The translations under genes and the position numbers were made by a program. 64,000 nt of DNA from a virus. Within the stretch, counting starts at the first letter, position 1, and each line of letters starts with the position of its first letter. The stretch lies in the IMG/VR virus record IMGVR_UViG_3300010885_075474, positions 1-64,000 of that record. The stretch is one strand, 5' to 3'. This document shows, piece by piece, positions 43,329 through 58,984 of this stretch. The notes under the pieces were generated by a model. That model had not been told where the DNA came from and made no database searches. It worked only from the letters and a program-made list of their open reading frames with translations.

Positions 43329-45755
43329 TTAAGATATTGGTAAAGTTTCCGGTTTTTCGCCTTCCGCTTCTTCTTCTTCTTCCGCGTCCATTTGTAACTT
43401 GGCTTTCAGCGTTATAAGTTCCACGTTTCGCTGATGCTGCTTTTGAGCATTTTCGTCATCTACCTTGCCTTGGAGAACAATCAGTTTGCCCTTGGCTTCC
43501 GCTTTCATGGCCTCGCCTTGGGCTTTTGCCTGCTCCATCGCTACGCCCGCTTGTGCTTGCGCCTGGGATTGCGTGACCATGGCTTCTTGCTGTTGTTGCG
43601 CCTGCAATTGCTGGTTTTTTTGAACGGCCCGGGCCAGATAGAATTGCGCCATTTCCATTTGATCTTGGTCAATCATATTGGCTACAACCAAGTAATCCGC
43701 CTCAGTAATCAATTGGTTCTGGCGATTTTGAAGCAATGAATTCATAATTTGCTGCTTCAGATTGTCGTTTGCCAGCGGCTTAATCACCACGTCATAATCA
43801 TGCACCGAGTATTCAGGCAAAAGCCGGATCTGCTTCACCACGTTACTGCCAGGCATAATGCGCGTGAATTCCAATTCGCCATGCGCAGACACAATCTGAT
43901 ATCGGCGAGCGATCTGCAAACAGATTTGTTGATACAACGATGTGGCCGCGGTATAAAGACCGGACAGCGCCCGGTTGCTTGATGCTTCAAAGTTTTGAGC
44001 AACCCCATTCAGCACATTCGCCGCCTGGGCAGACCCGTCGCTCATTTCATTGGTTCCTGATACCATGCGCAGGCTGTTCAGGTTCATTTCAATTTCAGCC
44101 TGAATAGTCTGCATAAATTGCAGGGTAGTATTAGGGAGTTCCATGATCGGCGCTCCTTTGTTTGCTGCACCTGGATCATAATCACCTCGATCTGCATAGA
44201 TTAAATAGCCTCGGATCGCATAAATATCCAGCAAATCCGGCAACGTCACATTCATGCCGCCCAAGTCCAAGGCATCTTCCATAGATGCAATATTGATCGC
44301 AATATTTGGAGGAGGAGGCATTTTCGACATAACACTACGACGCCGCAAAATTGCCAATTGGAGATCGTCAATAATCGCCACGGCACTGTCGGTAATGGAT
44401 GGGTTATTCAGCGCATAAATCTGCACCGGTAAAAGCGCTTTCATGGCGCCCGGGCTGCCATCGCGCACCGTAATCACATCGCGGCCCGCAGCATACACAT
44501 AATTCGTGCCCACAATCCATTTTGCAGTGTATACATATTGGATCGGATAATCTCGTACAACTTTTCCCATGTTGAGATTGCGCTTGTTGAGAGTCGAACC
44601 TCGCTCCACGCGATCAAACAAGCGCCCGCCATTGGATCCAATACCAACCACATAGCGCTCCACATCCAACCCGATCACATAAAAGGTCATCACTTGGATC
44701 CGGCTATTGTCATATGGGCCACCATTTCGGTATCTGGTTTGAAATAAATCCCGTTGCCCGACAGATTGGTAAGTATCCTGATATTTCATTCCTGAATTTC
44801 CACCGTAGCCAGCATAGGTGTTGGCAATTTCCTGAAGCGTTCTTTCGTCGAAGCCGGATTCGGCCCGGATGCCCGCAATGGTCATGTCTTTTACAAACGC
44901 CACAAAATCTGAATCTCGGCAATCTGCATACATGGAGGAGCGGAAAATTAATCGCGCAGGATCAACATACTCAATAATCTGTCTGCCGGTTCCGTAGTCG
45001 TGATAAATATGCGTGGCAGCAATGGCGCCATCTACCAAGTCCTCGCATATCTGGCGCTTAATGACGGGATCGTAACGCGATAAATCAAACGAGTTTTTCA
45101 GCGCCTCGGTCAATTCAATTTCCGCTTGCAGGGAATATCCGCCCAATTTTTCGATGACATCAATATCATCTGGCGAAAACATCTCGGCGTTTTGGGAGAT
45201 ATTGGTGGGCGCCATTCCTGATTCAGCAAAAAATTGCTGCGCTTTTGGATCGGCTGCAAGACGGTCGCGCAGATAGTTCTGCTTCTTTTTATTGATCGCA
45301 AGGCCATCCACTGCCGTTACCTGGGGCTGGAATCGTAGGCTCATAATCCGGTCAATGATGCGCTCCCGGAATGCAGACCAAATCCGCACATTGTCATAGG
45401 ATATATTCAGGAGAGATTTTGCATTGTCGGCACTTGGAACGGCACCCCATTTGCCGGGATCGGCGCTATATTGAAAATCAAGTATTTCTCTATACTTGTC
45501 AACAGGCTGCATACCGCGGGCGTAGGCTCGGAGGAGCGCAAGCGGGCGAGAGTTTGCCGCATAATACCCATTTGGGCCAATGACGGTTTGGCCTGCCGAG
45601 TACAGTCCGTAAATGTACCTGGCCCATAACAGCATTTGCTGATTGTACTCGGCTTCATCTTCAGGAAAGATTGCCGATGGCGTGTCAATTTTACCCTTCT
45701 CCATTTGGGTTTTAAAATTGTCCACTCCAAAAGCCTTATTGTATTGCTCCTCCAT
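43329..45755 (-). CDS. Portal protein
   Basis: 808 residues, overlapping the terminase stop by 20 bases. Portal-like features: NVRIWSAFRERIIDRIMSL in the first quarter, long mixed wing/stem regions, MKALLPVQIYALNNPSITDS, and QAEIEMNLNSLRMVSGTNEM in the crown-proximal region. The C-terminal 150 residues are a Gln/Ala-rich coiled coil (QQLQAQQQQEAMVTQSQA) ending in an acidic tail, as in the long portals of crAss-like phages. Forms the dodecameric DNA gate at the capsid vertex. Confidence 0.8.
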   Translation of the reverse strand: MEEQYNKAFGVDNFKTQMEKGKIDTPSAIFPEDEAEYNQQMLLWARYIYGLYSAGQTVIGPNGYYAANSRPLALLRAYARGMQPVDKYREILDFQYSADPGKWGAVPSADNAKSLLNISYDNVRIWSAFRERIIDRIMSLRFQPQVTAVDGLAINKKKQNYLRDRLAADPKAQQFFAESGMAPTNISQNAEMFSPDDIDVIEKLGGYSLQAEIELTEALKNSFDLSRYDPVIKRQICEDLVDGAIAATHIYHDYGTGRQIIEYVDPARLIFRSSMYADCRDSDFVAFVKDMTIAGIRAESGFDERTLQEIANTYAGYGGNSGMKYQDTYQSVGQRDLFQTRYRNGGPYDNSRIQVMTFYVIGLDVERYVVGIGSNGGRLFDRVERGSTLNKRNLNMGKVVRDYPIQYVYTAKWIVGTNYVYAAGRDVITVRDGSPGAMKALLPVQIYALNNPSITDSAVAIIDDLQLAILRRRSVMSKMPPPPNIAINIASMEDALDLGGMNVTLPDLLDIYAIRGYLIYADRGDYDPGAANKGAPIMELPNTTLQFMQTIQAEIEMNLNSLRMVSGTNEMSDGSAQAANVLNGVAQNFEASSNRALSGLYTAATSLYQQICLQIARRYQIVSAHGELEFTRIMPGSNVVKQIRLLPEYSVHDYDVVIKPLANDNLKQQIMNSLLQNRQNQLITEADYLVVANMIDQDQMEMAQFYLARAVQKNQQLQAQQQQEAMVTQSQAQAQAGVAMEQAKAQGEAMKAEAKGKLIVLQGKVDDENAQKQHQRNVELITLKAKLQMDAEEEEEAEGEKPETLPIS

Positions 45756-47799
45756 ACTGTTTCATTCTAAATGGCGACATGAATTTTCTTGAATTACGCC
45801 GTTTTTGTTTTTCCGTTTTGATAAACATGGATTGCGCATAAAGCAGCGCCCATCCATAGGCAACAGTTAAATCTCGCTTTCCCCGGTTTTGCGGAGTGCC
45901 CGTAAACTGCTTGTGGTCCTCCAAGAGATCCAGATGCGTTTGCGCTGCTACTTTGATGGCCACTGCCGATTTAAGTTCCCGCACATAGGCAGTGATCGCT
46001 TCAGACGACGCTGGTGCGCCATAATCCACCGCTCTTACTTGCTTGTGAATTGAAACCTTCATATTTGGATTAAACGCGAGGTATTTGTGATAGGACTTAT
46101 GCTCGCAGTAAGTTATAAGACCTGGTTTTGCTTTCTCGATCAGCATATCCACTCCGTAGTAGATTGCAGTCATCAAACAATCCTCATAAAAATCATAGGG
46201 ATTATCAGGTCGGTATCGGTATGTCAAACAGCACCGGTCCGTAATCATTTTTTCGCGAATCGGATTCGGCCCCCAAGCATCGGCAGCCGGATCTTCAACC
46301 GTTGGATCAAACATGCGATGAATTGCCATCGCCCCATAAGAGCCACCGCCATCTGGCTTATAATCGTCTACCGGATCCACGCCCATCGCAAATTTACCCT
46401 TATTTCCTGGTGATGCGTAACCATTCAGAAAATCTCGGTTATTCGGAATATCAGGATGCCCGGATATTGACCAGCGGCCATTATCGCTTGGTCGCCATTC
46501 CACGTCCGAGCCAAAGCCATTTTTCCACACTAAATTCCCGCGCACGGGCTTATTCAGATACGAGATACCGAGCATATTATTGCGCTGCAATTTGCCAATT
46601 TGCTCATCAAGCAAATGCGGCAATAACACACAATCTCGATCAGGCACCGCCAAGGCATCTTCTACACTGGCCGGAAACTTCCGCTTATACGATACTATCT
46701 CGGAGGCCAGGCCCGCACGGCGCATTTGAGCAATCGTTTCTTCGCGCCGTTTTGTTTCTTCTTCTACCCTATGGCGCCCAAACTGATCCACCGGAGCCGT
46801 CAGCCAATAGCCGCGAAAAACGCGCAGCAATCCGCTTATGGTCTGGTTGTTTTTATTTAGGCTTAACGGATTGGACGCATCCCATAATTTGCGCATTTCG
46901 TCAATCGATTCGCCCTCGTCCATATCTTCGACGGTCGTTGTCAATGCTGCTTTCCCTATGATCCGGCGCCCATTCTCGAGCGATAAACAAAGTTTTACGA
47001 CCGGCCACTGTTCCGACCATCTCATTTTGGATGCCCGTATTTTACTCGGTTCGTCACCGTGAAAAAAACGGAGGCGCTTACCATCGTAAGCGCCGAACAG
47101 GGTAGGCTTGAAATCAATCCTGCTCCTCAATTCCTGAATTTGCTCCAAGTGCGTGTTTTCCGCAGTCGTGGAGCGATATCTAAAGATTAACTCCTCTTTA
47201 GGCATGTCGGTGCCCGTAGATTTTGGCCGAAAGAAATAGACCATATCACGGTTCGACATCACTACTCGGTCAAAGTTTTCCTGGGCGTCTACATCGGATT
47301 TATTCATCATCCCGAACCACGATGAGCGGTATCTTGTAATAAGATCCCATCCGTAGCAGAGCGTTTTTTCCGTATCGCCAATACGGCGGGGCTTCACATC
47401 GAATATTCCATAATAGTTCGGATCGTTTTCAACATGATCCAATATTTGAAAGTATTCAATCGCTTCATAGCGGAAATCGGGATAATCACCGGATTCAGCC
47501 CGCCAATAGTTAAAAAACAAATACGCGCAGCCCGTAAAATAAACCGGTTCCCCGCCAATCAGCATCCACACGCCATTCCAGCGCCGATGCCATTCTCGCC
47601 GAATGAATTCTTCTTCTTTTTTCGGCTCCCACTTTGCAAGATCCTTTGGAACATCAATACGTCGGAATATCTGTTGCGATTTTGGCAGATCGTAATTCAT
47701 CATTTCGCTTCGCGGAGGCATATCCGGCAAACGAATTGGAATTTCAACCCCTTTTATTTCACAAAAGTTATTCTTAGTAAACGTCTTGATGTATTCCAT
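45736..47799 (-). CDS. terL: Terminase large subunit
   Basis: 687 residues. ATPase: Walker A-like KPRRIGDTEKTL (residues 136-147) and Walker B FFHGDE (245-250). RNase H-like nuclease: GVDPVDD (473-479, first Asp), YCEHKSY (about 564-570) and the final acidic KRDLTVAYGW (Asp643). Pumps phage DNA into the procapsid and cuts the concatemer. A separate small-terminase gene was not recognised. The P-loop has Asp-Thr-Glu instead of the usual Gly before Lys-Thr, as in some Bacteroidota phage terminases. Confidence 0.85.
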   Translation of the reverse strand: MEYIKTFTKNNFCEIKGVEIPIRLPDMPPRSEMMNYDLPKSQQIFRRIDVPKDLAKWEPKKEEEFIRREWHRRWNGVWMLIGGEPVYFTGCAYLFFNYWRAESGDYPDFRYEAIEYFQILDHVENDPNYYGIFDVKPRRIGDTEKTLCYGWDLITRYRSSWFGMMNKSDVDAQENFDRVVMSNRDMVYFFRPKSTGTDMPKEELIFRYRSTTAENTHLEQIQELRSRIDFKPTLFGAYDGKRLRFFHGDEPSKIRASKMRWSEQWPVVKLCLSLENGRRIIGKAALTTTVEDMDEGESIDEMRKLWDASNPLSLNKNNQTISGLLRVFRGYWLTAPVDQFGRHRVEEETKRREETIAQMRRAGLASEIVSYKRKFPASVEDALAVPDRDCVLLPHLLDEQIGKLQRNNMLGISYLNKPVRGNLVWKNGFGSDVEWRPSDNGRWSISGHPDIPNNRDFLNGYASPGNKGKFAMGVDPVDDYKPDGGGSYGAMAIHRMFDPTVEDPAADAWGPNPIREKMITDRCCLTYRYRPDNPYDFYEDCLMTAIYYGVDMLIEKAKPGLITYCEHKSYHKYLAFNPNMKVSIHKQVRAVDYGAPASSEAITAYVRELKSAVAIKVAAQTHLDLLEDHKQFTGTPQNRGKRDLTVAYGWALLYAQSMFIKTEKQKRRNSRKFMSPFRMKQYGGAIQ

Positions 47800-47868: not shown

Positions 47869-49470
47869 CTACTGCCGAAGTATTGTTGCGTTTGTTATCA
47901 CAATTCCATTTGCGGCAAGGGCGGTGCCAAATTGAGCAAAAAGAGCAAGCGTTTTTGTTGTTGTGGTATTTATACCTGTATTATCTGAAAGCACTGGGTT
48001 TGAAAATGGAAACCACCCACCAAAAAACACGGGATCTACTAAAGCCGTTTGCATTTGTGCAAACCCTTGCGCTCGCATTGTTCCAGAGGCACCCGCTGCA
48101 CTAACTCTTATTGAAAAGTTTGCTGTAAATGTTCGAAATGCGCCGCCAGAAATTGGGCGCAAACCCGCTGTTGCTGAATAAATCGTATCGGTTCCGTAAA
48201 CCAATCCTACTCGAAGATTGCCAGGCGTAGTTGCATCCGTTTGAATATAACCTTCAGCCATGATTCGCAGCGTTTGTCCAGAAGACAACGAGTTGGCGGG
48301 AATTGAAACACTTGTTAATGTTGACACTGCCGTTGTGTTGTTAATCGTTGTGTTGGATGTTGCACTAAGCAAAGTTTGGTCAAAAGGGTAGTAAGTAGCG
48401 CCTGTTCCAGATCCTTCAAATTTATTCAAGTCTGTATTATGGCGAATTACGCCCGCTGCTGCTGTGGGGCGCTGCGCCGATGTTCCCGTGGGCAATCTTA
48501 TTGCACCAGTTCCCGCCACATCAAGGCGATATAAAGGGTTTGTATTGCCTATCCCTAAGTTCCCCGCCTTATTCAATCTCATCCGTTCGGCTGCCGTTGC
48601 TGTGCCGTCGGAGGTCCAGAACGATATATTTCCTGAATAAAATGTGCTTGCTGTTGAGTCGCCCCGAAATTGGATTGTTGCCGCTTCTCTAAAAGCAGAA
48701 CTGTAAAACGCTTGCGCATGCAATGCACCTAAATAATCGTAAGTGGTTGTACAATTACCACTTAAAACGCTTGCGCCACCTCTTGAACATATAATAGACC
48801 CCCCCTCTACAACGTTGGATGCTACATTATTACCACTTCGTAGGTATAATGCTCCTGCAGAGGTAGTTGCTTGCAAACCTGCATATCCGCCATTGTTCCC
48901 AGACGTATATGTGTTTAGATTAAACCATGCATTTGTGTTGTCATAAGTAAAATTTCCGCTATTAGAAAGCGAATTGACTCCCGAAAAATAAGGTATTCGA
49001 TTCGTTGCTCCAGAAAAAGGGAATGACGGCGCCCATGCTGATCCAGTCCATCCTAAGTAGTTTCCAGCACTTGCGCCTGCCTGGCTAATTTTTGACATCC
49101 ACACGGATCCATTTGCAAGACGTGTGGATGTAATCGCTGAAACAGCCAAACGGGAACTGTCAATCGTCGCAGCGGCAATTTTTGAATTTGTCACTGCATT
49201 TGCGTTGATCGTCCATGACAATCCGCCGCCCGAAACAGTCACGTCCGTGTAGTTGCCGTCCGTAACCGATCCGGATTGGTCGGTTCCCCAAACAACGGAC
49301 GTGTCGCCCGACATCTTTATAACTTGGCCATTCGTACCAGGTGCCAGATATTTTACAAATCCGTTTCGATAAAACATCGCAAACGGCTTGGTTGGTTGAA
49401 GCCGAGGATTTCCCGTTTGGGAAAAACAGAAAATCGGAAGAAAAAGGAGGAAAAAGAGGATTTTTTTCAT
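47869..49470 (-). CDS. Tail fibre protein with N-terminal signal peptide
   Basis: 533 residues. MKKILFFLLFLPIFCFSQ at the N-terminus is a textbook Sec signal peptide with a Bacteroidota-style Gln at the expected cleavage site. The body is fibre-like: Thr/Ser/Gly-rich repeats of the type (T/S)-x-(K/R)-(I/L)-A, then LGIGNTNPLYRLDVAGTGA and RLPTGTSAQRPTAA, segments common in phage tail fibres preceding a C-terminal receptor-binding domain. The C-terminal 150 residues are beta-rich. A cleavable export signal on a virion protein is unexpected. Start overlaps the spike stop by 4 bases. Confidence 0.75.
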   Translation of the reverse strand: MKKILFFLLFLPIFCFSQTGNPRLQPTKPFAMFYRNGFVKYLAPGTNGQVIKMSGDTSVVWGTDQSGSVTDGNYTDVTVSGGGLSWTINANAVTNSKIAAATIDSSRLAVSAITSTRLANGSVWMSKISQAGASAGNYLGWTGSAWAPSFPFSGATNRIPYFSGVNSLSNSGNFTYDNTNAWFNLNTYTSGNNGGYAGLQATTSAGALYLRSGNNVASNVVEGGSIICSRGGASVLSGNCTTTYDYLGALHAQAFYSSAFREAATIQFRGDSTASTFYSGNISFWTSDGTATAAERMRLNKAGNLGIGNTNPLYRLDVAGTGAIRLPTGTSAQRPTAAAGVIRHNTDLNKFEGSGTGATYYPFDQTLLSATSNTTINNTTAVSTLTSVSIPANSLSSGQTLRIMAEGYIQTDATTPGNLRVGLVYGTDTIYSATAGLRPISGGAFRTFTANFSIRVSAAGASGTMRAQGFAQMQTALVDPVFFGGWFPFSNPVLSDNTGINTTTTKTLALFAQFGTALAANGIVITNATILRQ

Positions 49471-52400
49471 AATGCAAGGTTGTATTTTAGGGCAAAGTAG
49501 GATTTCATTGCAGAAATTTGCGATGCCGTTAAGATTCGATTATAAATAACCACTTCGCATATTTCGCCAACAAAGCTGAAATTGCCCGTGTTAGTTCGTC
49601 CAATAAAAAAGTTACTGGTGTTGGTTGTGGATAGCGTATTGCTTTGAGTATTGGCTGCATATGGGCCCAGCGGACCAACGTACGCCCGGGCTCGAAGTGC
49701 CGCAGTTGCATTCTCGGGATCCGTCGTAAACGCGAGCATCCCAAAATTACTTTCGGTATACCCATTTAGCGAATTTGAATTTGAAACGACTAAATTACTG
49801 CCATTAGAAATTAAATTCGCTACAACTCCATTCCCAGGATTACGCTGGTAATACATCCCGTATCCTCGTTGCGCACTACCAACCGTGCCACCAATAATGC
49901 CGGATAGCGTACCGTTTACAAGAATAGAATCAGCCATTTTCACGATAACAAATACCGTGGCGCTATCCTTTTGCAATACAGACATATCGGAGCTATTCCG
50001 AACAGCCCATTTTGCCGTGGTCGTATCAGCCAGCGTAGTCGAAAACTTGAACGATGGTCTGAAATTGAGCGCTACTTTCTTCCAAGTTGGACCTCGGTTG
50101 ACCAATGGAGCAGTAAAATTCCGATTATTCCCAGACCAGTCGTGCAGCGTATCCACTTGTTGCCCATTTGTGAATTTCGTTTCTTTTCCGGCATCAAGCC
50201 ATACGTAAGGACTCAAACTTAGTGGGTACTCTAATGCCGCCTTGTAGTTTGCCGGGCACTGAAATAACAGTAGCGTGTCATTTCGCAAGGATCCTGCTGA
50301 TGAATATGACCCCCAAATGGTATCCAATTCAACCACATCACCAAGAAGATTCTGGCAATACATCTGACTGTTAAGGGCAACCGTCTTGCTTGATATTGTT
50401 GGCGACTCTATGCGAAACGATACATTCTTACCTGTTTGCCAACCTAACAATTTCTGCAATACCGTGGTATTGGTCGTCGCCTTCTTAATGACAAAACTGG
50501 TGTAGTTAAAATTCATTGCTATGGTATCATACCCGGTCGCAACAAATCGTGAATAGTCGTAATTAGGGATGATGTTTGATCGCCCTGTAATGCTTGCCCA
50601 TATTCGGCGCCCTAAATTAACTTGTGATTGCGCATCAATGTGCGAACTATCTGATACAACCACGGCATCGCTGTTGTACACGCAATTTGTCCAATCAAGA
50701 CCATCGGTATTCAATTGATTGTACAAATAATTGGCAGTCTGACCATCCGGAATTTCGCCAGGCCAAATCGTTTCGCCCGAAACTAATCCGGTTTTGATCT
50801 GCACAGCCAGCACCCTGGTACTTTTTTGCCATTTAGATAAATTCCGAAATTGATTCATTACCGTAAACCAATCTTGGGTATATTGGCGCTGGGTGCGCCC
50901 CGTCCATCCGTCTGTCTCGCCTTGATACCAGACGAGAACATCAATTCGAGGAATTCCGGATGCAAATACTCGCGCGCTGATTGTATCCCATTGTGTACCT
51001 GTCGGCGAAATCCAGTTTGCTATGGCTCGCCCACCCAAAGCAGCGTAAACAACGCGGGTTAAGCGACCGTCTTGTTCTGCTTGCTGGCCAATCGTGGTGC
51101 CCCACCAAGCAGTTTTGGTCGTAAGGCCATTCATCCAATACCAGTTCGTTTTGAAAGGACGGGCCCAACTTTCTATTGTTGGATTCCAAATGCACTGAAA
51201 TTTCGACGGAACCGTGTCGGCTGGATTGCTTGTCGGGCCACACCGAGGCGTAGCATTACTTTGTCCGGTTATAACAATGTATACGGGTTGTTGCGCCGAA
51301 AACGTGCCTTGAATTCGGTCGTAATAACCGATTTTCTTCCAAACACCATACACATATTGGTAGGTATTATATATTCCAGTGCCATCATTTTCGGATAAAT
51401 TGACCCAGGTCCGTAGCGTATCTGCGCCAGTCGGTGTTGCAGCCTTAATTATCCAACCAGAATTTCCAACACCACCCGCTGCCGATGCAGGAACCCAAGC
51501 GCTGCCATTCCATTGAGGCACCTGGTTGGGCGCAGCGCCACTTTGGCCAAGTTTCGACAACGTGATACCACCCGCCAAATCGCTGTTATTGATTGATAGC
51601 GGCTTGATCTTGGTGCTGTCTATGGAATTTACCGCAATTTTAATGCCGGTTACAGCATTTGAAGCAATTCGCGTTGCAGTAATCGCGCTGGCAGCCAGTT
51701 TAGAACTATCCGACACAGCGCCCGCCGCCAAATTCCGGGCCCAAACCTGGCCGGTAGCGATATTGGTAGCCTGAATTGCATTCGCGCCAACTTTGGTACT
51801 ATCCGATACGGAGCCCGCTGCCAATTTTGTGCTTGATACAGCACCAACGGCAATAGTTGTGGCCAATGACCCTGCCGCTTTAGTGACATCACCAGTCAAT
51901 GCAGTCGTAGAAGCAACTTTCAAAGTACCGGTAACATTACTGCCCGAAAGATCAATTGGATTGGCAGTAATAACTTGGCTTGATCGGCTCAAATAATTTT
52001 CGCCCGCCAAACTTACATCCCCGGTATTCGTGCCGGATACAGTGGCGTTACCAGGCACGTCCAATGTTTTACCACCACCACTTAGCATCAAGCTTGCACC
52101 GGATGTGCTGATTGTTGCTCCATTCACCGAAGTGGGCGTAATGGCGCCCAGTGAGATCGTAAGCATTGGCGTACTCGTTGGCGTAGCAACTGTTCCGGTT
52201 ATTCCGTTGGCGTTGTTGAAACCAAATGAAGTAACGGTGCCTGTTCCGCCACCGCCGCCACTACCCGGGCAATCGTCAGCCAAAGCCGCTACCGCAGCAT
52301 ATGTTTGATTGGTGACAATGTTGATCGCAGGAGGCGTTTTATAGGCAATTACCGCCTTGCCTGCCAAGTTTGGGGTGATACTTCCGATCAATACGCGATT

Positions 52401-52688
52401 CACGACCAGCGGAACCGTGGTGTTATTACCGTTTACCGTTTCGACAGCGCTCACGGCAAACAGTTTGTTGCAAGATCGCCGTACAATTGTATCGGGTTTT
52501 TCGGTGCAAAAGTAATTGATCAGCGGATTACCATACTGAACAATCGCGGATCCATCTGCTGCCGTCCGAACCAAGCGGATTTCGTCAACATTAAAGCCCC
52601 GCGCTCCCGTGCTGGTATTGAGCGAAATGACCTGCGCATTGAGCGCAAAAGCCAAAACGGAAAAAAGGAAAATAAGTGCTTGTTTCAT
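49467..52688 (-). CDS. Tailspike with signal peptide, SASA-type esterase and LamG-like domain
   Basis: 1073 residues from the ATG at 52688 (ATGA overlap). N-terminal MKQALIFLFSVLAFALNAQ is a signal peptide. Residues about 150-430 are Ser/Thr/Gly-rich with repeats such as STKLAAGSVSDSTKVG. From about 470 an SGNH/sialate-O-acetylesterase (SASA) domain shows VITGQSNA (block I, about 475), VWYQGETDG (about 588) and DSSHIDAQ (Asp/His, about 681). The C-terminal 270 residues (YVWLDAGKETKFTNG, DWSGNNRNF, GEICEVVIYNRILT) form a laminin-G/concanavalin-like domain. It likely binds and deacetylates host surface polysaccharide. Confidence 0.8.
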   Translation of the reverse strand: MKQALIFLFSVLAFALNAQVISLNTSTGARGFNVDEIRLVRTAADGSAIVQYGNPLINYFCTEKPDTIVRRSCNKLFAVSAVETVNGNNTTVPLVVNRVLIGSITPNLAGKAVIAYKTPPAINIVTNQTYAAVAALADDCPGSGGGGGTGTVTSFGFNNANGITGTVATPTSTPMLTISLGAITPTSVNGATISTSGASLMLSGGGKTLDVPGNATVSGTNTGDVSLAGENYLSRSSQVITANPIDLSGSNVTGTLKVASTTALTGDVTKAAGSLATTIAVGAVSSTKLAAGSVSDSTKVGANAIQATNIATGQVWARNLAAGAVSDSSKLAASAITATRIASNAVTGIKIAVNSIDSTKIKPLSINNSDLAGGITLSKLGQSGAAPNQVPQWNGSAWVPASAAGGVGNSGWIIKAATPTGADTLRTWVNLSENDGTGIYNTYQYVYGVWKKIGYYDRIQGTFSAQQPVYIVITGQSNATPRCGPTSNPADTVPSKFQCIWNPTIESWARPFKTNWYWMNGLTTKTAWWGTTIGQQAEQDGRLTRVVYAALGGRAIANWISPTGTQWDTISARVFASGIPRIDVLVWYQGETDGWTGRTQRQYTQDWFTVMNQFRNLSKWQKSTRVLAVQIKTGLVSGETIWPGEIPDGQTANYLYNQLNTDGLDWTNCVYNSDAVVVSDSSHIDAQSQVNLGRRIWASITGRSNIIPNYDYSRFVATGYDTIAMNFNYTSFVIKKATTNTTVLQKLLGWQTGKNVSFRIESPTISSKTVALNSQMYCQNLLGDVVELDTIWGSYSSAGSLRNDTLLLFQCPANYKAALEYPLSLSPYVWLDAGKETKFTNGQQVDTLHDWSGNNRNFTAPLVNRGPTWKKVALNFRPSFKFSTTLADTTTAKWAVRNSSDMSVLQKDSATVFVIVKMADSILVNGTLSGIIGGTVGSAQRGYGMYYQRNPGNGVVANLISNGSNLVVSNSNSLNGYTESNFGMLAFTTDPENATAALRARAYVGPLGPYAANTQSNTLSTTNTSNFFIGRTNTGNFSFVGEICEVVIYNRILTASQISAMKSYFALKYNLAL

Positions 52689-53359
52689 TGATTTTTTTTG
52701 TTTGCATTGAAATCCCTGGCCATTTTTTCCGCCCATCCGCCCCTTTCTTCGCTTGCAGTCGCCGCTTCCAGCGCTGCCTGGGCCGTCCGAGAGTGCGGGA
52801 ATAGCCTTGTTTCATAATCCTGCACTTTGGCAGTCAATTTCTCAATAGTTTCAATGGCTTTTTGCTTGCCAATCATGTGCTTTTCAGGATCCGCCACGTC
52901 ATCTAATCGCATTTGCAAGTAGGTCTGCATCTCCTGCATTCCCACCTTCAGCGAAATCCAAGTTGTAAACACGTCGTTGTTCTCAGTCTGCATGTACTCC
53001 ATGATGATTTTGGAGTACCACCAATGATTTTTGACAATCATTTCCCGCAACCGATCCTTCGCAGGAATGCCCACCATCTCGGCGCACAATTCGATTCTGC
53101 GATCATAGTTCTCCTCGTCATAAAACGGCGAATCCCGAGAGCAAAATAGAATGACAAAATTCACCATTCTATTCAAGTCCGAAAGCGATGGCGGCTTTTC
53201 CCCCATCGCTTCAAATATATCCTTCGGCACCTTATACAGCCCAGGACGCTTCAGTAACTTTGTGTAAAAATCAAAAGTGTGCTTACCATCTGGAACTGCA
53301 AACGGATTAAATTCAAGCGCATCAAAAGCGCTGTAATCGGTTCCCTCAATTTTTTTCAT
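52685..53359 (-). CDS. Hypothetical late protein
   Basis: 224 residues, helical. Contains NFVILFCSRDSPFYDEENYD and a YSKIIMEYMQTENNDVF segment, then a charged coiled-coil end (AIETIEKLTAKVQDYETR). Proteins of this look recur in structural modules of Bacteroidota phages without a known function. The size would suit a small terminase, but no HTH is clear. Sits 1 base after the GroES-like gene's stop and overlaps the spike start. Confidence 0.65.
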   Translation of the reverse strand: MKKIEGTDYSAFDALEFNPFAVPDGKHTFDFYTKLLKRPGLYKVPKDIFEAMGEKPPSLSDLNRMVNFVILFCSRDSPFYDEENYDRRIELCAEMVGIPAKDRLREMIVKNHWWYSKIIMEYMQTENNDVFTTWISLKVGMQEMQTYLQMRLDDVADPEKHMIGKQKAIETIEKLTAKVQDYETRLFPHSRTAQAALEAATASEERGGWAEKMARDFNANKKNQ

Positions 53360-53360
53360 A

Positions 53361-54122
53361 CTACAAGATTACATCTTCGGTCATGGCGTAGGCATTTATA
53401 AAATGACGGAATGTGGCGTAGAGCGGGCGAGCGCGATTTTTCCCCCAAGCCTGATGCTCGTCGTACTCAATCCTGGCCGCTGCACCCTTCGTCAAAAAGA
53501 CTCGTTTCGACAACAAAGTTATATCAAAATCTTTACTTTCCGGAAAAAGCAGATAGTTTTTGACCAAACAACCCTCTTTTTTCACAATTCCTTTCCTTTC
53601 GTCAACACCAAACTCATTGGCCTTCCCTTCAAAATAATCACCCCGCTCGTCGTCGTCCATTTCCAAAAACACAGCGCCGTTGAGCGGATATATTTCTTCG
53701 CCATCAATGCGGGCAATCAGATTGTCATACTTTACAATCATATACCCATCAAACACCAAATGCTTTTGCGACAGCCCCACATGCTTAATCAAAACCTGGT
53801 CTCCATCCTGAATTTCAATCGGCACATCAAAATATGTTGTCCGTTGTGTCAACCTGGACGTATATTTCTGGTCGGTAGGGCCAAAATCCCGCGCATTCAT
53901 ATACGGATGAATCAAATCACCCAGATAATAATTGCTTTTGGGAGCCTTAACCACTTTCGCTACCCTGCTTTTGAACAGATCCGCCTCCTCGTAATTCCGG
54001 GAAACAACAATGCCCGACCTGGTATCATGCACCAGATCGCTGCCAAGTTCAATCAGCACATATCCGGGCGCTACGCTAAACCGCAATATGTCGATAAATG
54101 GAGAGTTTGTTGCTTCTGACAT
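53361..54122 (-). CDS. GroES-like co-chaperonin with canonical mobile-loop motif
   Basis: 253 residues. FSVAPGYVLIEL (15-26) matches the first GroES strand; TRSGIVVSR (34-42) matches the GroES mobile loop with the hydrophobic GIV(V) that docks to GroEL; DLFKSRVAKVVKAP (48-61) the next strand; GDQVLIKH (107-114) the G-D-x-V strand; and YDNLIARI (132-139) the last strand. A 40-residue insertion lies at about 62-102, and a C-terminal extension (about 140-253) is not recognised; it has a similar beta pattern (LNGAVFLEMDDD, SKRVFLTKGAA) and could be a degenerate second barrel. E. coli GroES has 97 residues. Likely partner of the chaperonin at 57378-58984. Confidence 0.7.
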   Translation of the reverse strand: MSEATNSPFIDILRFSVAPGYVLIELGSDLVHDTRSGIVVSRNYEEADLFKSRVAKVVKAPKSNYYLGDLIHPYMNARDFGPTDQKYTSRLTQRTTYFDVPIEIQDGDQVLIKHVGLSQKHLVFDGYMIVKYDNLIARIDGEEIYPLNGAVFLEMDDDERGDYFEGKANEFGVDERKGIVKKEGCLVKNYLLFPESKDFDITLLSKRVFLTKGAAARIEYDEHQAWGKNRARPLYATFRHFINAYAMTEDVIL

Positions 54123-54621
54123 AGTTTTTCAATATTTTTCCATACTTTTTATTCGTCGCATACCCGCAGCGCTGCAATCCATCCGCCCACTTCTCCCAAT
54201 CCAGCCCATATTTCTCCCGCATCCAGGAATATCGCCGGTGCATCAAAACCAAGGCGTAGTCATAAAACGATTTTTCCTCGCTTTCATACACCACAAACTT
54301 GTCGTTCGGCAAATCGTCGGCATATTCCACAAAAGGATCTGGGCCCAGCGCCTTCACGCCGAACATATTATGATAAACGCTGGATAATTCAGATCGCCCG
54401 CAATCGCTTTCAATCGCCGCCTGCGCGAGACAAATCTCCAGCGGAATTCCATACCGCTGCTCAATCAAATTTGCCATCCTGGCATGCTTCATGAAGAATT
54501 CAGCCTTTTCGCCATATACGCATGGTACTGAAATATCAATCCGCTTTAATTCATGCGCCATTGGCGCCTCAATGTTGCTGGAAAATGCCAGCAAAAATAG
54601 TGCAATGAAAAAACCTTTCAT
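54076..54621 (-). CDS. Exported glucosaminidase-type endolysin
   Basis: 181 residues from the ATG at 54621. MKGFFIALFLLAFSSNIEA is a signal peptide. The mature part is a GH73-like (FlgJ/AcmA-type) N-acetylglucosaminidase: GIPLEICLAQAAIESDCGRS with the catalytic Glu71, then NMFGVKA and a C-terminal YDYALVLMHRRYSWM / GYATNKKYGKIL region. It cleaves peptidoglycan from the periplasm after Sec export, so lysis would not need a classical holin. Its end overlaps the GroES-like start by 47 bases. Confidence 0.85.
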   Translation of the reverse strand: MKGFFIALFLLAFSSNIEAPMAHELKRIDISVPCVYGEKAEFFMKHARMANLIEQRYGIPLEICLAQAAIESDCGRSELSSVYHNMFGVKALGPDPFVEYADDLPNDKFVVYESEEKSFYDYALVLMHRRYSWMREKYGLDWEKWADGLQRCGYATNKKYGKILKNYVRSNKLSIYRHIAV

Positions 54622-54680
54622 CTGCTTTTGTTTTGGTGAAAAAATAAGCCGGGCAAGCATCGCTCACCCGGCCCCATTCC

Positions 54681-55421
54681 CTACTTCGCCCAAGGCAGTT
54701 TGGCGATTTTCGCTCCGCCAGAGCTGTACTCATACACCGGCGTCTGGTTGTACTCCGGCGCAATTCCCTTTTTGACTTCTTCAAGCAATTTCATCCAAGT
54801 CGTAACGCCCGCTTCCTTCACTGCAACTTTGAAAGCCTGCGTAAATACGCCGCCGCCTTCATTTTCATAACTTACTTGCGCATCCGTGCAAGCAGACAGC
54901 CCGCAATAGGCAATCCGCCCCGGGATCGGGTAGGTAGTCGGCTTCACCTTCACACTCTTTGGCAATACCAGGCACCGAACTGCATGATACCCGCCACCCA
55001 ACGGATGACCGGCCATGCGGCTGTTGCTTTGGCTGAAACAAGTGTCGGAGATCGTGATAATATTCACCTGGGCCTTGAACTTCCGCCATTCCACCGGCAA
55101 TTCATAATCCCAAAGGATCTGATCGTGCATACACCGGCATGTTGCCCGTCCACTTTGCGTGTCTTGGTAGGAGCCATGCCCGCTATGATACCACAGCAGC
55201 GTATCTCCAGGCTTCATAATGCTTGCAAACCGGCGCAAGTTGTTTATCACTTCACCCCGGGTGCAGTTTTCGTTGAATAACTCGACATACTCACAGCCGC
55301 TTTCGTAGCACAAGATGTCCTTGACACCCAGCGCATCCTTCACGCAGCCGCGCAAATCGTTTCCAGGCCCATAATAATTGGCATCGTACTTGTCGGATGC
55401 CGTGTTGAGAACGTATAGCAT
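54681..55421 (-). CDS. Metacaspase-like (peptidase C14) protease
   Basis: 246 residues from the ATG at 55421, 4 bases after the upstream stop (an ATG at 55448 is also in frame). The caspase fold is clear: YYGPGNDLRGCVKDA (the 'L-x-G-x-x-x-D-A' start), TRGEVINNLRRF, GDTLLWYHSGHG with catalytic His82, IITISDTCFS with catalytic Cys128, then IAYCGLSACTDAQVSYE and GVFTQAFKVAV, which match the end of the metacaspase p10-like part. Both catalytic residues are intact, so it should be active. No signal peptide. It lies next to the endolysin in the late block. Capsid or fibre processing, lysis control or attack on host proteins are all possible. Confidence 0.8.
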   Translation of the reverse strand: MLYVLNTASDKYDANYYGPGNDLRGCVKDALGVKDILCYESGCEYVELFNENCTRGEVINNLRRFASIMKPGDTLLWYHSGHGSYQDTQSGRATCRCMHDQILWDYELPVEWRKFKAQVNIITISDTCFSQSNSRMAGHPLGGGYHAVRCLVLPKSVKVKPTTYPIPGRIAYCGLSACTDAQVSYENEGGGVFTQAFKVAVKEAGVTTWMKLLEEVKKGIAPEYNQTPVYEYSSGGAKIAKLPWAK

Positions 55422-55425
55422 AAAA

Positions 55426-56157
55426 TCAGATTTTAATGACACCACCATTGCGATGCCACGAATTTCGCGCTTCATCGCTAAAAGAAAGCAATTTGCCCCG
55501 AACTTTCCACACATATTTCGTATTTTCCATGATTTTCGGGCCGTATGTGGCGCGAACATAGGACGAATAGGCATTATGCGGATTATCAAAAAACGGCGCC
55601 CCTTTCATATAATTCTTCCAATACACCCGGCCATCAACAACTTGCGACTCCAATCCTTCGATCACCGCAATATCATCCGGCCAAGGAAACCACTCCACCA
55701 ATTCAATATTCAGCAGTTGCACCATGAAACGAGCATATTCCACCCGCTTATGCGAGCCAATCATGCTTTTTAGATGATTTCGCTTCATATTATTCCGAAC
55801 CGCTTCCGACAAATCCGCCAGATACCCGATTTTGCCATCCCTGGACTTATAAACCATCTCCAGCGCAGGCAAATAATCACCAGGCGAACCATAATGACTC
55901 GGCTGCCGAGCCTCATAACGCCCATACAGATACACATCAAAGCACAAACGCCCTGAATCCATCGTATTTTGCCGCAATTCGATATGCTCTTTCGGAATTT
56001 TCCCAAACAATCGATTGAATTCATTCAGCGCAATAGGCCGAAACGTGGTGAATTCGCCCGCTTGCTGATGCAAACGAACTTGCCGGTTCGCAAGCGACCA
56101 ATATACTGCCCGCTCTTTATACGGGAATATCAAATTTGCACGACTTAAGCCTGCCAT
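55426..56157 (-). CDS. Hypothetical late protein
   Basis: 243 residues. Contains CFDVYLYGRYEARQPSHYG, an AVRNNMKRNHLKSMIGSHK helix and a Trp/Pro segment VEWFPWPDDIAVIEG. Ends with FSDEARNSWHRNGG. Not recognised. Its coding strand is G-rich and C-poor like the neighbouring chaperonin genes. It starts inside the upstream gene (13-base overlap) and ends 4 bases before the metacaspase ATG. Confidence 0.65.
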   Translation of the reverse strand: MAGLSRANLIFPYKERAVYWSLANRQVRLHQQAGEFTTFRPIALNEFNRLFGKIPKEHIELRQNTMDSGRLCFDVYLYGRYEARQPSHYGSPGDYLPALEMVYKSRDGKIGYLADLSEAVRNNMKRNHLKSMIGSHKRVEYARFMVQLLNIELVEWFPWPDDIAVIEGLESQVVDGRVYWKNYMKGAPFFDNPHNAYSSYVRATYGPKIMENTKYVWKVRGKLLSFSDEARNSWHRNGGVIKI

Positions 56158-56372
56158 AGTTCAACATTTACTGGTTGATAATTTGGATCCCTCACTTCTG
56201 GCGCTCCCGCAGCAGGATACACAACGCAAACGCAGTCATGATACCCGCAACACGCATACGCGCCAGACTCCATGACTTCAGAGCCGATCGAAGCGATCTT
56301 CGCCTCCAGATCGGCGATCTTCTTTTCGGTCTGCATCCAGCGAAACCGATTCGCCATTCTTCCTTTTTTCAT
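56145..56372 (-). CDS. Small coiled-coil/Cys-rich protein
   Basis: 75 residues (a second ATG at 56357 is possible). A helix with heptads (QTEKKIADLEAKIASIG) is followed by a Cys-rich YACCGYHDCVCVVYP and a Pro-rich tail. It overlaps the small gene at 56278-56451 in another frame for 95 bases, so a single-gene origin with a frameshift is possible. Confidence 0.6.
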   Translation of the reverse strand: MKKGRMANRFRWMQTEKKIADLEAKIASIGSEVMESGAYACCGYHDCVCVVYPAAGAPEVRDPNYQPVNVELWQA

Positions 56373-56451
56373 TGTACTCCTTCATGATTTCAGTTAAGCG
56401 CACCAATTCAGCGCACTTGCACTTTTTTTGATGACAAACCTCGCAAGCCAT
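56278..56451 (-). CDS. Small zinc-site-like protein (57 residues)
   Basis: ATG at 56451, three bases after the stop of the GroES-like gene. Starts MACEVCHQKKCKCAEL (four Cys and one His within 13 residues), then a charged helix; the last 30 residues overlap the start of the next gene in another frame and are Arg/Asp-rich. The tight spacing and Cys motif support translation; the tail in the overlap is less convincing. Confidence 0.5.
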   Translation of the reverse strand: MACEVCHQKKCKCAELVRLTEIMKEYNEKRKNGESVSLDADRKEDRRSGGEDRFDRL

Positions 56452-56453
56452 TG

Positions 56454-57374
56454 CTATTTTGCCCTTTTAATGATCGATTTTTTCCAATTTTTTACCACCA
56501 CCTTCTCCGGATACTCATAAACCTTACCCTGCTTCGCAAAAAAGCCATCATTTTTATACACAAACGGCGGATAGTCGTAGAAAAAGCCATCGCCATCCTC
56601 ATCAACCGCAAAAAAATCATGCCCATCCGGAATGCCCTTAAACAATTCTTCCGCCCGCAACTTCTCAAACTTAATCTTCCGAACCCCAGTACGAGGCAGC
56701 AAAAAACTCACCTCAAAGCCGCCAAAAGCAATATCCGCGTCACCGGAATACTTCGCACCCACCTTCCGAGACCCGCCTTCCGCAGCATCCCAAAACTGCA
56801 CTTCTTCATGAAACTCCGGCTCCTTCTCAAAGAAATACCCCCTTCCATCCGGATTCACCGCAAAAAACTCACACCACACCGGCGCATGCTCGAAAAACTT
56901 TTCCGCATCAATTTTGCTGCAATCTACAACGCCATTTTCCATCAAACTTTCCAAATACAAATAAAAGAACATCCGATCCCGATCATCCGCCAATTTCTCA
57001 TTCTCAATCACCATGCGCTTCGCTTCCAGCACCACAGGATGCTTCTCAATTGCTTCCAGATCGCTTTTCTCGCTTTCTTCAGGCGATACCCACCCCGCAA
57101 CATCACGGACCAGCACAAAGCGATACAGCGCGTCCTTCCCTTCTTCATCCTGCAATACAAGCGGCTCGCTATTCAACCGCTCATACACAATAACCGACCC
57201 CGCAACAAGCCCCTCAAATTGCTCACCCAGCACTCCCACCTTCACCACTTCAGCCGCAGAAATCTCCCGCGCATACTCCGATACATCAAACACATCATCT
57301 CGCTTTGCCTCAATAGGCTTAACCAGCAAACGCCCTGGCGTTAAGAAAATCGAACTCAATTTCACTCTTGCCAT
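56454..57374 (-). CDS. GroES-like protein with large C-terminal extension
   Basis: 306 residues. Residues 9-95 follow the GroES barrel: IFLTPGRLLVKPIEAK, a loop (DDVFDVSEY) in place of the mobile loop but without GI(V/L), ISAAEVVKVGVLGEQFEGL, AGSVIVYERLN and YRFVLVRDVAGWV. A charged helical linker (96-150) leads to two copies of an aromatic module, HAPVWCEFFAVNPDGRGYFF (163-182) and GIPDGHDFFAVDEDGDGFFY (248-267), related to the W-x-x-A-P-x-W modules at 6596 and 9098. It starts 3 bases after the GroEL-like stop, so the order groEL-groES is inverted relative to bacteria. Possibly a dedicated cap for folding one virion protein. Confidence 0.6.
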   Translation of the reverse strand: MARVKLSSIFLTPGRLLVKPIEAKRDDVFDVSEYAREISAAEVVKVGVLGEQFEGLVAGSVIVYERLNSEPLVLQDEEGKDALYRFVLVRDVAGWVSPEESEKSDLEAIEKHPVVLEAKRMVIENEKLADDRDRMFFYLYLESLMENGVVDCSKIDAEKFFEHAPVWCEFFAVNPDGRGYFFEKEPEFHEEVQFWDAAEGGSRKVGAKYSGDADIAFGGFEVSFLLPRTGVRKIKFEKLRAEELFKGIPDGHDFFAVDEDGDGFFYDYPPFVYKNDGFFAKQGKVYEYPEKVVVKNWKKSIIKRAK

Positions 57375-57377
57375 GGC

Positions 57378-58394
57378 CTACGAATTTGGAAGAACAACTT
57401 TGCGCGTTTCGATCCATTCCGCCGCTTCTTCCGCCGCATTATAAACCGCCGCCTTGATCGCACTCAAACTATCCAAAACGCCAATCTCAATCGCATCGCA
57501 CAACTCAAACTGACTCGAATCGCCATCCTCGGCCAGCACTTTGAGCATCCGCTCATCCAGCAACACCGACGACAACTCACCCTCATTCTGCGCAACAATC
57601 CCGCAGCAATCCTCAATAACACCGCTATCAACCCCGCCATTTTCAAGCAAACGACGGAACACAGCAAACGACACATCGTCCAACCCCGACAACTCATCAT
57701 GCTCCCCTTCTCCCAGGCTCATACCCGCCCGAGCAATGCTCAATCCCGCACCCGGCAACACCCCTTCCTTCAAAGCCGCAAAAGAAGCCATATACGCATC
57801 CTCCACAACCTCCTTCAGCCAGTTCGTCGCACCCGTCGTGATGATCGGCACCTTGATTATCCCAATCCGCTGCTCCATATTCGCCAAACGACCCTTCAAC
57901 TTCGCCCGCTTCTCCTCATTATCCGCACCATCCAACATCACCCGAATCACATCCTTATGCGCAGCCAAATCGCCAACACCCTCCTTCCCAATAAACACCG
58001 ACCCCTTCATATCAACAATGACCTTCGCCGCTTCACCAAAATCCCCCACGCCCTTGAAATCCGCCAACATCGCTCCATCCCGCTTCACCAAATTCTTACC
58101 CCCAACAACCGCCCGCAAATCGCTCAATACCGCAGCATCTTCAGCCCGCACACAATACACCGGCAGCACAGGACCACCACCAGCCCGAACCCGCTTTACC
58201 AACGTGCCAAGCGCACTTCCTTCCAAATTCAAACTCACAACCACCAACGGCCTTCCGTCCTTCTCAAACTCCATCACCCAGGCCTGCATCATAGGCGCCA
58301 CATCCTTCCAATCCTTCGCCTCGTCAATAATCAGCACATAAGGATTCTCAATAGACGACTTTCCAAACTTGCCCCCAATAAAACTTTCATGCAT
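57378..58394 (-). CDS. groEL: GroEL-like chaperonin, C-terminal portion (apical, intermediate, equatorial)
   Basis: 338 residues from an internal ATG (58394), but homology-like sequence continues upstream in this frame to the slippery site at 58409. Seen: SSIENPYVLIIDEAKDWKDV (apical start, compare 'ENPYILL.DKKI'), VVVSLNLEGSALGTLV, ANMEQRIGIIKVPIITTG, EDAYMASFAALKEGVLPGAG (the 'EGIVPGGG' signature) and IGVLDSLSAIKAAVYNAAEE (the equatorial GxxD, matching Asp495 of E. coli GroEL). The C-terminal Gly-Gly-Met tail is absent. With the N-terminal ORF and a -1 shift the product is 535 residues (E. coli GroEL 548). The spliced product is the likely functional form. Confidence 0.8.
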   Translation of the reverse strand: MHESFIGGKFGKSSIENPYVLIIDEAKDWKDVAPMMQAWVMEFEKDGRPLVVVSLNLEGSALGTLVKRVRAGGGPVLPVYCVRAEDAAVLSDLRAVVGGKNLVKRDGAMLADFKGVGDFGEAAKVIVDMKGSVFIGKEGVGDLAAHKDVIRVMLDGADNEEKRAKLKGRLANMEQRIGIIKVPIITTGATNWLKEVVEDAYMASFAALKEGVLPGAGLSIARAGMSLGEGEHDELSGLDDVSFAVFRRLLENGGVDSGVIEDCCGIVAQNEGELSSVLLDERMLKVLAEDGDSSQFELCDAIEIGVLDSLSAIKAAVYNAAEEAAEWIETRKVVLPNS

Positions 58395-58984
58395 GGACCA
58401 CCCTTCAGCAAAAAACCCTCCAGGCGCCGCGCACTCAATGCCGATACACTGTCATCAAACTCCACCTCAACCGTGCCATCCACCCCAATATCAAATACCA
58501 ACTTCGCCACCATCTCCCCAATAACAGGATCATTGTTACCCGCAAGCGTGGCTACCTTCGCCAACAAATCATAACCATAGGCATCATTCGTTACCTTGAT
58601 CGCCATAGCATCCAACGCATCCAGCATACGCGCCGCAACCCAACGAATCCGACTCCCCATCCCACGATGGCTCCCCGCCATGGCATTCAAACCCCAGCGA
58701 TAAAACGCACCCAACAAAATAGTGAACGTCGTCGTCGCATCGCCCGCAGCCCGCCGCACAACAGCAGCCCGCTGCCGAACCCGCGTAACCAGATTGTTCG
58801 CCATGTCGTCCTGCACAGGCTGATAATGCTCCAGCACTTTCATGCCATCCCGGAACGCAACCGGCGCCGTGCCATCAAATAAATGCACATTCGCCCCGTA
58901 AGGACCGGCAGTGCTGCCTACCAAATCAACTATCTTGTCCATCCCGACAAGATACTGATCCTCAATTTCGATGATTTTATTCAT
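58331..58984 (-). CDS. groEL: GroEL-like chaperonin, N-terminal portion (equatorial/intermediate)
   Basis: 217 residues as read. Residues 24-40 (GSTAGPYGANVHLFDG) match the 'LGPKGRNV' nucleotide-binding segment; FRDGMKVLEH the 'TKDGVSVA' segment; RRAAGDATTTFTILLG (about 77-92) the 'AAGDGTTTATVLA' motif with the ATPase Asp kept (Gly-Asp-Ala-Thr-Thr-Thr); and DLLAKVATLAGNNDPVIGEMV the intermediate domain. It diverges from the family after residue about 191, exactly at a T6 run, and ends with an unrelated 25-residue tail. The other frame continues the chaperonin. Located first among the large genes of the late block. Confidence 0.8.
   Translation of the reverse strand: MNKIIEIEDQYLVGMDKIVDLVGSTAGPYGANVHLFDGTAPVAFRDGMKVLEHYQPVQDDMANNLVTRVRQRAAVVRRAAGDATTTFTILLGAFYRWGLNAMAGSHRGMGSRIRWVAARMLDALDAMAIKVTNDAYGYDLLAKVATLAGNNDPVIGEMVAKLVFDIGVDGTVEVEFDDSVSALSARRLEGFLLKGGPCMKVLLGASLESRLLRILMC
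58409..58415 (-). promoter_or_regulatory. Candidate -1 frameshift site T_TTT_TTG in the chaperonin gene
   Basis: In the N-terminal reading frame the codons are GGT TTT TTG at 58417-58409. Tandem slippage by one base on T_TTT_TTG places the next codon GCT in the frame of the C-terminal chaperonin ORF and joins GroEL-like sequence on both sides without a gap. GGAGGG lies immediately upstream. No strong downstream stem-loop was obvious. A missing T in a homopolymer or a real mutation would look the same. Confidence 0.55.

Follow-up and report, generated by a model that had tools for sequence, protein, structure and literature searches.

We analyzed a 64,000-nucleotide stretch of viral DNA, here called the window (positions 1 to 64,000 of IMG/VR virus record IMGVR_UViG_3300010885_075474, which is 69,015 bases long), and found that one of its late genes, GroES-like A, occupies the slot upstream of the terminase gene that in related phages holds a tandem co-chaperonin, a protein in which two Cpn10 (GroES) domains follow each other in one chain. 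A is itself probably such a protein, with two GroES domains in tandem at about residues 1 to 140 and 141 to 253 rather than one GroES domain and a tail. The same late block encodes a GroEL-like sequence that is broken between two frames and a second candidate cap, GroES-like B, and these two would form a separate module that only some relatives carry. An earlier interpretation of the letters of the window (the sequence-only reading) had placed both GroES-like open reading frames (ORFs) and the groEL region at the right coordinates and had proposed two different caps for one barrel. Two unlike caps are supported by our comparisons and are conserved, but alternative chambers are not established, as the short cap alone tracks GroEL.

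A family of tandem co-chaperonins

Relatives found via the terminase include Cellulophaga phage phi18:3, Maribacter phage Panino, and the circular metagenomic genome ctfjg026. Each encodes a protein of 182 to 200 amino acids (aa) with no more than one small gene between it and the start of the terminase, annotated as GroES in two of the three and as hypothetical in the third, and all three phages also have a short Cpn10 elsewhere in the genome. A scan with these three proteins yielded at least 550 candidate tandem loci, the best 80 of which were retained, and among the loci gathered 157 ORFs in 146 loci match the tandem family at E < 1e-4 (11 of these ORFs are shorter than 110 aa and are single Cpn10s or fragments). 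Family members are about 180 to 230 aa long. When 143 aligned members were split at the domain boundary, both halves matched an alignment of 11 short phage Cpn10s (E 1.7e-5 for the first half and 4.6e-11 for the second), while the first half matched the second only at E 1.7e-3; the member from locus L139 has two separate GroES stretches. Among 31 scanned proteins that include A, PF00166 matches 22 at E ≤ 0.1 and phrog_13932, "co-chaperonin GroES," matches 29 at E ≤ 0.01, and the latter also matches five tandem proteins of named phages.

We built a tree from 92 domain rows, made up of 30 first and 30 second domains with 12 short phage and 20 bacterial Cpn10s. In it the first domains all group together (99/97), as do all of the second domains (94/86). 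This fits a single old fusion, and a single origin of the tandem is thus supported by this one tree, which has few columns and long branches. The canonical G-[ILV]-x loop is present in 7 of the 30 first domains and 6 of the 30 second domains and never in both, suggesting that the two domains of the tandem cap are probably not equal partners. On the bacterial side, we observed that many of 61 genomes of one phylum have, in addition to canonical GroES, a divergent second homologue of Cpn10, commonly in a frame of about 130 aa.

Position of the tandem gene

The terminase lies just downstream of the tandem gene in all 75 loci that have 1.5 kb of room or more, and among loci ascertained through the terminase the tandem gene lies upstream of it in 57 of the 59 with room (locus L051 belongs to both sets). 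L102 and L135, the two terminase loci that lack a tandem gene, have other genes upstream. Gaps between the two genes range from 166 to 1483 bases in the 75 loci and from 195 to 4756 bases in the 57; the medians for the sets of 57 and 75 loci are 565 and 732 bases. A scan of genome contigs gave six loci, five of them with the tandem gene beside the terminase and one (L182) with neither by hidden Markov model (HMM). The gap between A and the terminase, at 5.6 kb, exceeds that in all 57 plus 75 loci measured (maximum, 4.8 kb), and it holds a 224-aa gene and two fibre-like genes. The 224-aa gene adjoins A and serves as a synteny anchor, as it has homologues between the tandem gene and the terminase in L003, L097, L107, and L139.

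Evidence for GroES-like A as a tandem protein

The first domain of A has the mobile loop SGIVV, which fits the pattern G-[ILV]-[VL] and bears out the GIVV loop named in the sequence-only reading. The 40-residue insertion that it had described is likewise confirmed, as about 40 extra residues at about 63 to 101 in our alignment, at the position of the roof hairpin in GroES. The "long C-terminus" of the same reading is more plausibly a second GroES-like domain. A profile comparison with hhalign matches A to the tandem family at E 2.6e-5, with residues 103 to 215 aligning in the same order to the last part of domain one and the greater part of domain two, and a profile of 31 tandem representatives matches A at E 2.4e-4. 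A is the best of 47 window ORFs tested against the tandem family profile (50 had been picked, and the three above 1000 aa were excluded), and none of 200 shuffles scored as well.

An AlphaFold2 model of A, built with 31 aligned sequences, is of medium confidence, with a predicted local distance difference test score (pLDDT) of 61 and a predicted template modeling (TM) score (pTM) of 0.62. Its top Foldseek match is 7ekq_R, a Cpn20 co-chaperonin subunit (E 3.1e-3; TM 0.37/0.46; root mean square deviation [rmsd] 8.2; 234 columns with gaps), followed by Cpn10 chains, and VIA-align 2 places 7ekq_Q first (Z 7.9 over 170 residues, 3 to 220) and then Cpn10s at Z ≤ 7.4, with the T4 gp31 structure 1g31 also among the matches (Z 5.7); Z values below 8 are suggestive only. 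Single-sequence PDB searches with A and with B returned nothing meaningful. Profile comparison, gene order, the neighbor gene, and predicted structure together make A probably a member of the tandem family, and the second domain would then be present in this phage as well.

Close relatives of A or of the C-terminal part of groEL were not found in an IMG/VR single-protein scan, nor were those of A or of B found by tblastn among 50,697 phage records, suggesting that the window represents a deep branch. Its terminase is about 25 to 32% identical to those of the relatives listed.

Which chaperonin parts go together

We compared 22 records, namely the window, six GenBank/RefSeq phage records, and 15 IMG/VR contigs of 46 to 72 kb; these are related rather than independent events, and some contigs may be incomplete. 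With A counted, the tandem gene is present in 22 of 22. Half of the records (11/22) had been picked via the tandem gene, and all 11 records reached via the terminase, the window among them, have it. GroEL is present in 13 of 22 (10/19 plus 3/3). A short Cpn10 (open frame of 84 to 112 aa) accompanies GroEL in 12 of 12 GroEL-positive records, the window excepted, and is present in one of the nine GroEL-negative records, phi18:3 (L006), a phage with short and tandem GroES whose whole genome has no PF00118 match. Short and tandem caps occur together in 13 of the 22 records by Pfam, or 14 if B is counted, and a tandem cap without a detected short cap occurs in 8.

The tandem cap thus stays constant across the records, and GroEL with the short cap is an optional module. 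As the tandem cap is present with or without GroEL and the short cap tracks GroEL, A may serve the GroEL of the host and B that of the phage.

Organization of the late block

The chaperonin genes are all encoded on the minus strand within the late block, in the following order.

58331..58984, minus strand: GroEL-like N part (N-terminal half of the equatorial domain plus intermediate domain), 217 aa; PHROG groEL E 1.5e-20; frame ends past the hinge
58410..58415, minus strand: six-T run in T_TTT_TTG at the groEL frame junction, from sequence, alignment, and the list of runs
57378..58394, minus strand: GroEL-like C part (apical, intermediate, and C-terminal half of the equatorial domain), 338 aa, in a different frame; PHROG groEL E 2.6e-18
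56454..57374, minus strand: GroES-like B; weak Cpn10 match at residues 13 to 97, then two small phage repeats
55426..56157, minus strand: gene of unknown function
54681..55589, minus strand: caspase/metacaspase-like peptidase; PF00656 E 3.1e-17
54076..54660, minus strand: glucosaminidase-type endolysin; PF01832 E 1.6e-24
53361..54122, minus strand: GroES-like A, probable tandem co-chaperonin, 253 residues; from profile comparison, model, and gene order
52685..53359, minus strand: 224-aa gene adjoining A; found by an HMM built from relatives alone, E 1.6e-6
47869..52736, minus strand: two fibre-like genes between the A/224-aa pair and the terminase, named by reading only
45736..47799, minus strand: terminase large subunit; phrog_6681 E 1.5e-63
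43329..45755, minus strand: portal protein; phrog_6547 E 4.6e-42

Other genes of the window drew our attention. The caspase-like peptidase has HSGHG and DTCFS motifs, and tblastn at E 1e-3 found no match for it among the 50,697 phage records. A 1534-aa protein (30345-34949, minus strand) ends in a crAssvirus muzzle C-terminal domain (PF25729, E 1e-5, just under the cut-off), hinting that the clade is kin to crAss-like phages. A 3226-aa protein (18205-27885, minus strand) has an LPD23 domain, and its residues 2580 to 3214 resemble gp123 of phi18:3, whose annotation as a virion protein is based on mass spectrometry.

GroES-like B

B starts 3 bases past the stop of the groEL C part, and this slot right after groEL is near where relatives keep their short Cpn10. 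In 13 of 14 loci tested, the short Cpn10 follows groEL on the same strand at a distance of at most 0.9 kb, and in the 14th (L173, record G007) it follows at about 1.4 kb. The sequence-only reading had called the order of groEL before groES inverted; that order is indeed the one in the window and the commoner one in relatives, but it is not special, and it is reversed in two Cellulophaga phages, phi38:1 and Calle_1, in which the short Cpn10 is upstream of groEL.

Residues 13 to 97 of B align weakly over the full Cpn10 domain (E 0.015 with whole B and 0.0041 with residues 1 to 97). B is the best of the 47 window ORFs tested against the broad Cpn10 profile, and none of 200 shuffles of residues 1 to 97 did as well; with a smaller Cpn10 profile, A outscored B and 1 of 200 B shuffles matched the score of B. 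Several alignments of B with short Cpn10s are misregistered. B has no PF00166 match at E 1 and no Pfam, NCBIfam, or phage tblastn match, and residues 1 to 97 have no significant match in the family libraries, the lone PHROG hit being phrog_2936 on residues 80 to 96 at E 0.1. On its position and alignment, B is likely a GroES protein, and it may fold as a GroES barrel. The "large aromatic domain" of the sequence-only reading does correspond to an extra C-terminal part (56454-56900), which holds two copies of a small phage repeat (best PHROG matches, phrog_1972 on residues 164 to 199 and phrog_14495 on residues 246 to 275, both PHROGs of unknown function).

A groEL-like gene in two frames

The one GroEL-like gene of the sequence-only reading is real in its homology, but the sequence consists of two ORFs that overlap in different frames, with their junction near 58410-58415, a split that went unmentioned there. 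Each part matches GroEL profiles (PHROG, NCBIfam) over its own half, with best NCBIfam GroEL values of 1.4e-17 and 5.1e-28, all below the curated cut-offs, and PF00118 matches the N part at E 2.6e-6, also below cut-off. GroEL homology leaves the first frame at "...RRLEGF" and restarts in the other at "AEGWSMHESF." By alignment, the break falls at about E. coli residue 192, in what we take from the E. coli GroEL sequence and domain limits to be the hinge between the intermediate and apical domains. The equivalents of the ATPase aspartates D52 and D87 (N part) and D398 (C part) of E. coli are all kept, and G+C content at third codon positions (GC3) is gene-like in both parts (0.57 and 0.60).

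The sequence T_TTT_TTG at the junction is a −1 slippery heptamer. In-frame X XXY YYZ heptamers (Y = A or T) number 50 in 13,339 codons, so a heptamer would rarely fall at the junction by position alone, yet insertions and deletions favor such runs too. RNA structure across the junction is no better than in shuffles (190 of 200 fold at least as well; z +1.63), and it gives no backing for programmed frameshifting. The 23 late ORFs listed contain 53 runs that are six or longer, and among the nine window ORFs with a relative in the loci compared, only the groEL pair matches one and the same relative protein. A generally error-prone assembly as the cause of the break is thus unsupported, within a test that covers those nine ORFs and would leave breaks in genes without relatives invisible. 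In relatives the groEL frame is open throughout (9/9 other PF00118 matches, 6/6 records, and 3/3 records, with record W04 counted in both of the latter sets). It is possible that the split gene yields a full-length chain by −1 frameshifting, that it encodes a two-chain GroEL, that it is truly decaying, or that it reflects an assembly error, and an account of that frame break is needed before one can assume that this phage builds a barrel at all.

Proposed mechanism and alternatives

Our results lead us to propose that A is a member of an old family of tandem proteins, with two Cpn10 domains in one chain, that heads the terminase-portal-capsid block in a large clade of Bacteroidota podoviruses. 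A would most likely cap a GroEL ring, that of the host where the phage has none and that of either host or phage otherwise, and the capped GroEL would fold late virion proteins, as T4 gp31 does. The GroEL-like protein and B would make up an optional module of their own, in which the phage GroEL has B as its short Cpn10 cap, and B would have gained two C-terminal repeat domains that hang outside the dome. Our comparisons show the GroEL homology, the tandem family with its synteny, and the linkage between groEL and the short cap; the second domain of A in this phage, the fold of B, ring formation, and the clients are parts of this scheme that we infer. Taken as a whole, we regard it as moderately probable.

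Several results weigh against this proposal. The frame break in groEL may mean that the phage ring has been lost. The match of A to PF00166 (E 0.069, 13.6 bits) is below the gathering score of 21.1, tandem-family HMMs score A at E 1 to 13, and Cpn10 HMMs built in this analysis score it at E 12 to 76. A comparison by hhalign with the four to five nearest sub-clade members gives only E 0.1 to 0.15, sub-clade HMMs and profiles fail to recover A, its separate halves have no good match, and it has no match among PHROG HMMs, phrog_13932 included. In the same control that ranked A first, the caspase-like protein at 54681-55589, which is not a GroES protein, reached E 2.1e-4 against the tandem profile. 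The model of A is weak (pLDDT 61, pTM 0.62, rmsd 8.2 to 7ekq_R), and its input alignment included family members. The loop region of B, by reading, is DVFDV, with no G-[ILV]-[VL] mobile loop, as the sequence-only reading had also said, and the AlphaFold2 model of B (pLDDT 41) is useless. The sequence-only reading had named a lack of Cpn10/Cpn60 profile hits as refuting the system. Such hits exist for the GroEL parts and for the family of A; A alone matches in profile-profile comparison, and B has no PF00166 match and a weak Cpn10 profile alignment. In structure prediction, the model of A matches Cpn10 and Cpn20 chains at a pLDDT of 61.

We are evenly divided on whether the groEL-like gene is either a recent pseudogene, in which case A and B would use host GroEL only, or an intact gene broken by an assembly error. 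Its frame is open in all of the relatives counted above, the break falls at a homopolymer with no stable RNA structure after it, and there is no sign of a conserved shift site; yet despite the 53 runs in the late ORFs, only the groEL pair among the nine window ORFs with a relative matches one and the same protein, and both parts keep the ATPase residues and a gene-like GC3, with a −1 slippery heptamer at the junction. It is rather doubtful that B is not a GroES protein at all. The lack of a family match in residues 1 to 97, the missing loop, and the failed model would fit this, but B sits directly after groEL and gives a full-domain Cpn10 alignment, the best of the 47 window ORFs.

A and B might also co-assemble, in the manner of chloroplasts, into one seven-domain ring of three tandem proteins and one short protein instead of acting as alternative caps, which would solve the mismatch between an even number of lid domains and the seven-fold GroEL ring. 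Bacteroidota phages would then have independently evolved a 3 + 1 asymmetric lid, with host GroES completing the ring where the single part is absent. The parts list of short plus tandem cap is there in 13 of 22 records (14 with B), and there is a chloroplast precedent, as the accessible text of one article describes a functional lid of three cpn20 and one cpn10 (PMC3542282) and that of another seven-domain hetero-oligomers (PMC5780408). However, 8 of 22 records have the tandem cap only, where host GroES could substitute or some contigs could be partial. The short cap, moreover, goes with groEL rather than adjoining the tandem gene, and lies on the opposite strand in elemoE_6-9C and L003. We consider such a mixed ring unlikely. 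Least probable, in our view, is that A, though GroES-like in fold, serves in packaging or head assembly and not as a chaperonin cap. Its fixed position upstream of the terminase would suit that role, as would the scarcity of canonical loops (7/30 and 6/30, never both), but most loops, by reading, are still hydrophobic, A keeps SGIVV, and PF00166 at E ≤ 0.1 matches 22 of the 31 scanned proteins.

Significance and comparison with known systems

The near-universal presence of a cap gene by the terminase suggests that head assembly in this clade needs a dedicated folding chamber. Tandem caps are common in the clade (at least 550 candidate loci), occur in cultured phages, and keep a fixed spot in the virion gene block, and they may offer a tractable system for asking why phages encode lids themselves and how a seven-fold ring accommodates lid domains that come in even numbers. 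The accessible text of Bracher et al. states that many phages encode GroES only, some both proteins, and few GroEL only (PMC7185714), and that of the Panino paper names GroEL and GroES homologues in one sentence (PMC11590407). We found no description of tandem GroES in phages in the open-access literature, searched by titles and abstract openings. The components are known and the family is annotated; the tandem architecture and its generality apparently have not been described before.

RefSeq already lists one GroEL and two GroES for each of the cultured phages elemoE_6-9C, phi38:1, and Calle_1, and the second GroES is assigned to phrog_13932 in elemoE_6-9C and phi38:1, the two tested. The tandem protein is matched by 68 Flavobacterium phage records. 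Flavobacterium phage elemoE_6-9C (NC_055854) resembles the window in having GroEL (gp43) followed by a short GroES (gp44) and a second GroES of 180 aa (gp30, which matches phrog_13932) just before the terminase, but its GroEL is intact, its short GroES has no C-terminal repeats, and no fibre genes lie between its tandem gene and terminase. The phrog_13932 proteins (for example, Cellulophaga phi18:3 gp096, phi38:1 gp089, and Panino CDS0088) belong to the tandem family in which gene order and profile comparison place A, although the phrog_13932 HMM does not reach A, which has about 40 extra residues.

Among phages with chaperonin parts of other kinds, EL is like the window in encoding a GroEL-like protein (gp146), but the accessible text of PMC7185714 lists it as GroEL only, a distant GroES not being ruled out there. 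T4 gp31, which works with host GroEL, is like A a phage cap for head protein folding, according to the accessible text of PMC5780408, but has a single domain. There is also an architectural likeness to the Cpn20 of chloroplasts and apicoplasts, which also has two GroES-like domains head to tail, is the top structural match of the A model, and in chloroplasts coexists with a short Cpn10, much as the phage tandem does with the short cap. In contrast to Cpn20, the phage loops differ between the two domains, and four other PDB GroES chains outscore Cpn20 (7ekq_R) against the tandem family profile, making an independent origin of the phage tandem likely. The likeness that we propose is thus one of how the two proteins might work, three cpn20 and one cpn10 in the plastid lid and a tandem with a short cap in the phage, and not one of descent.

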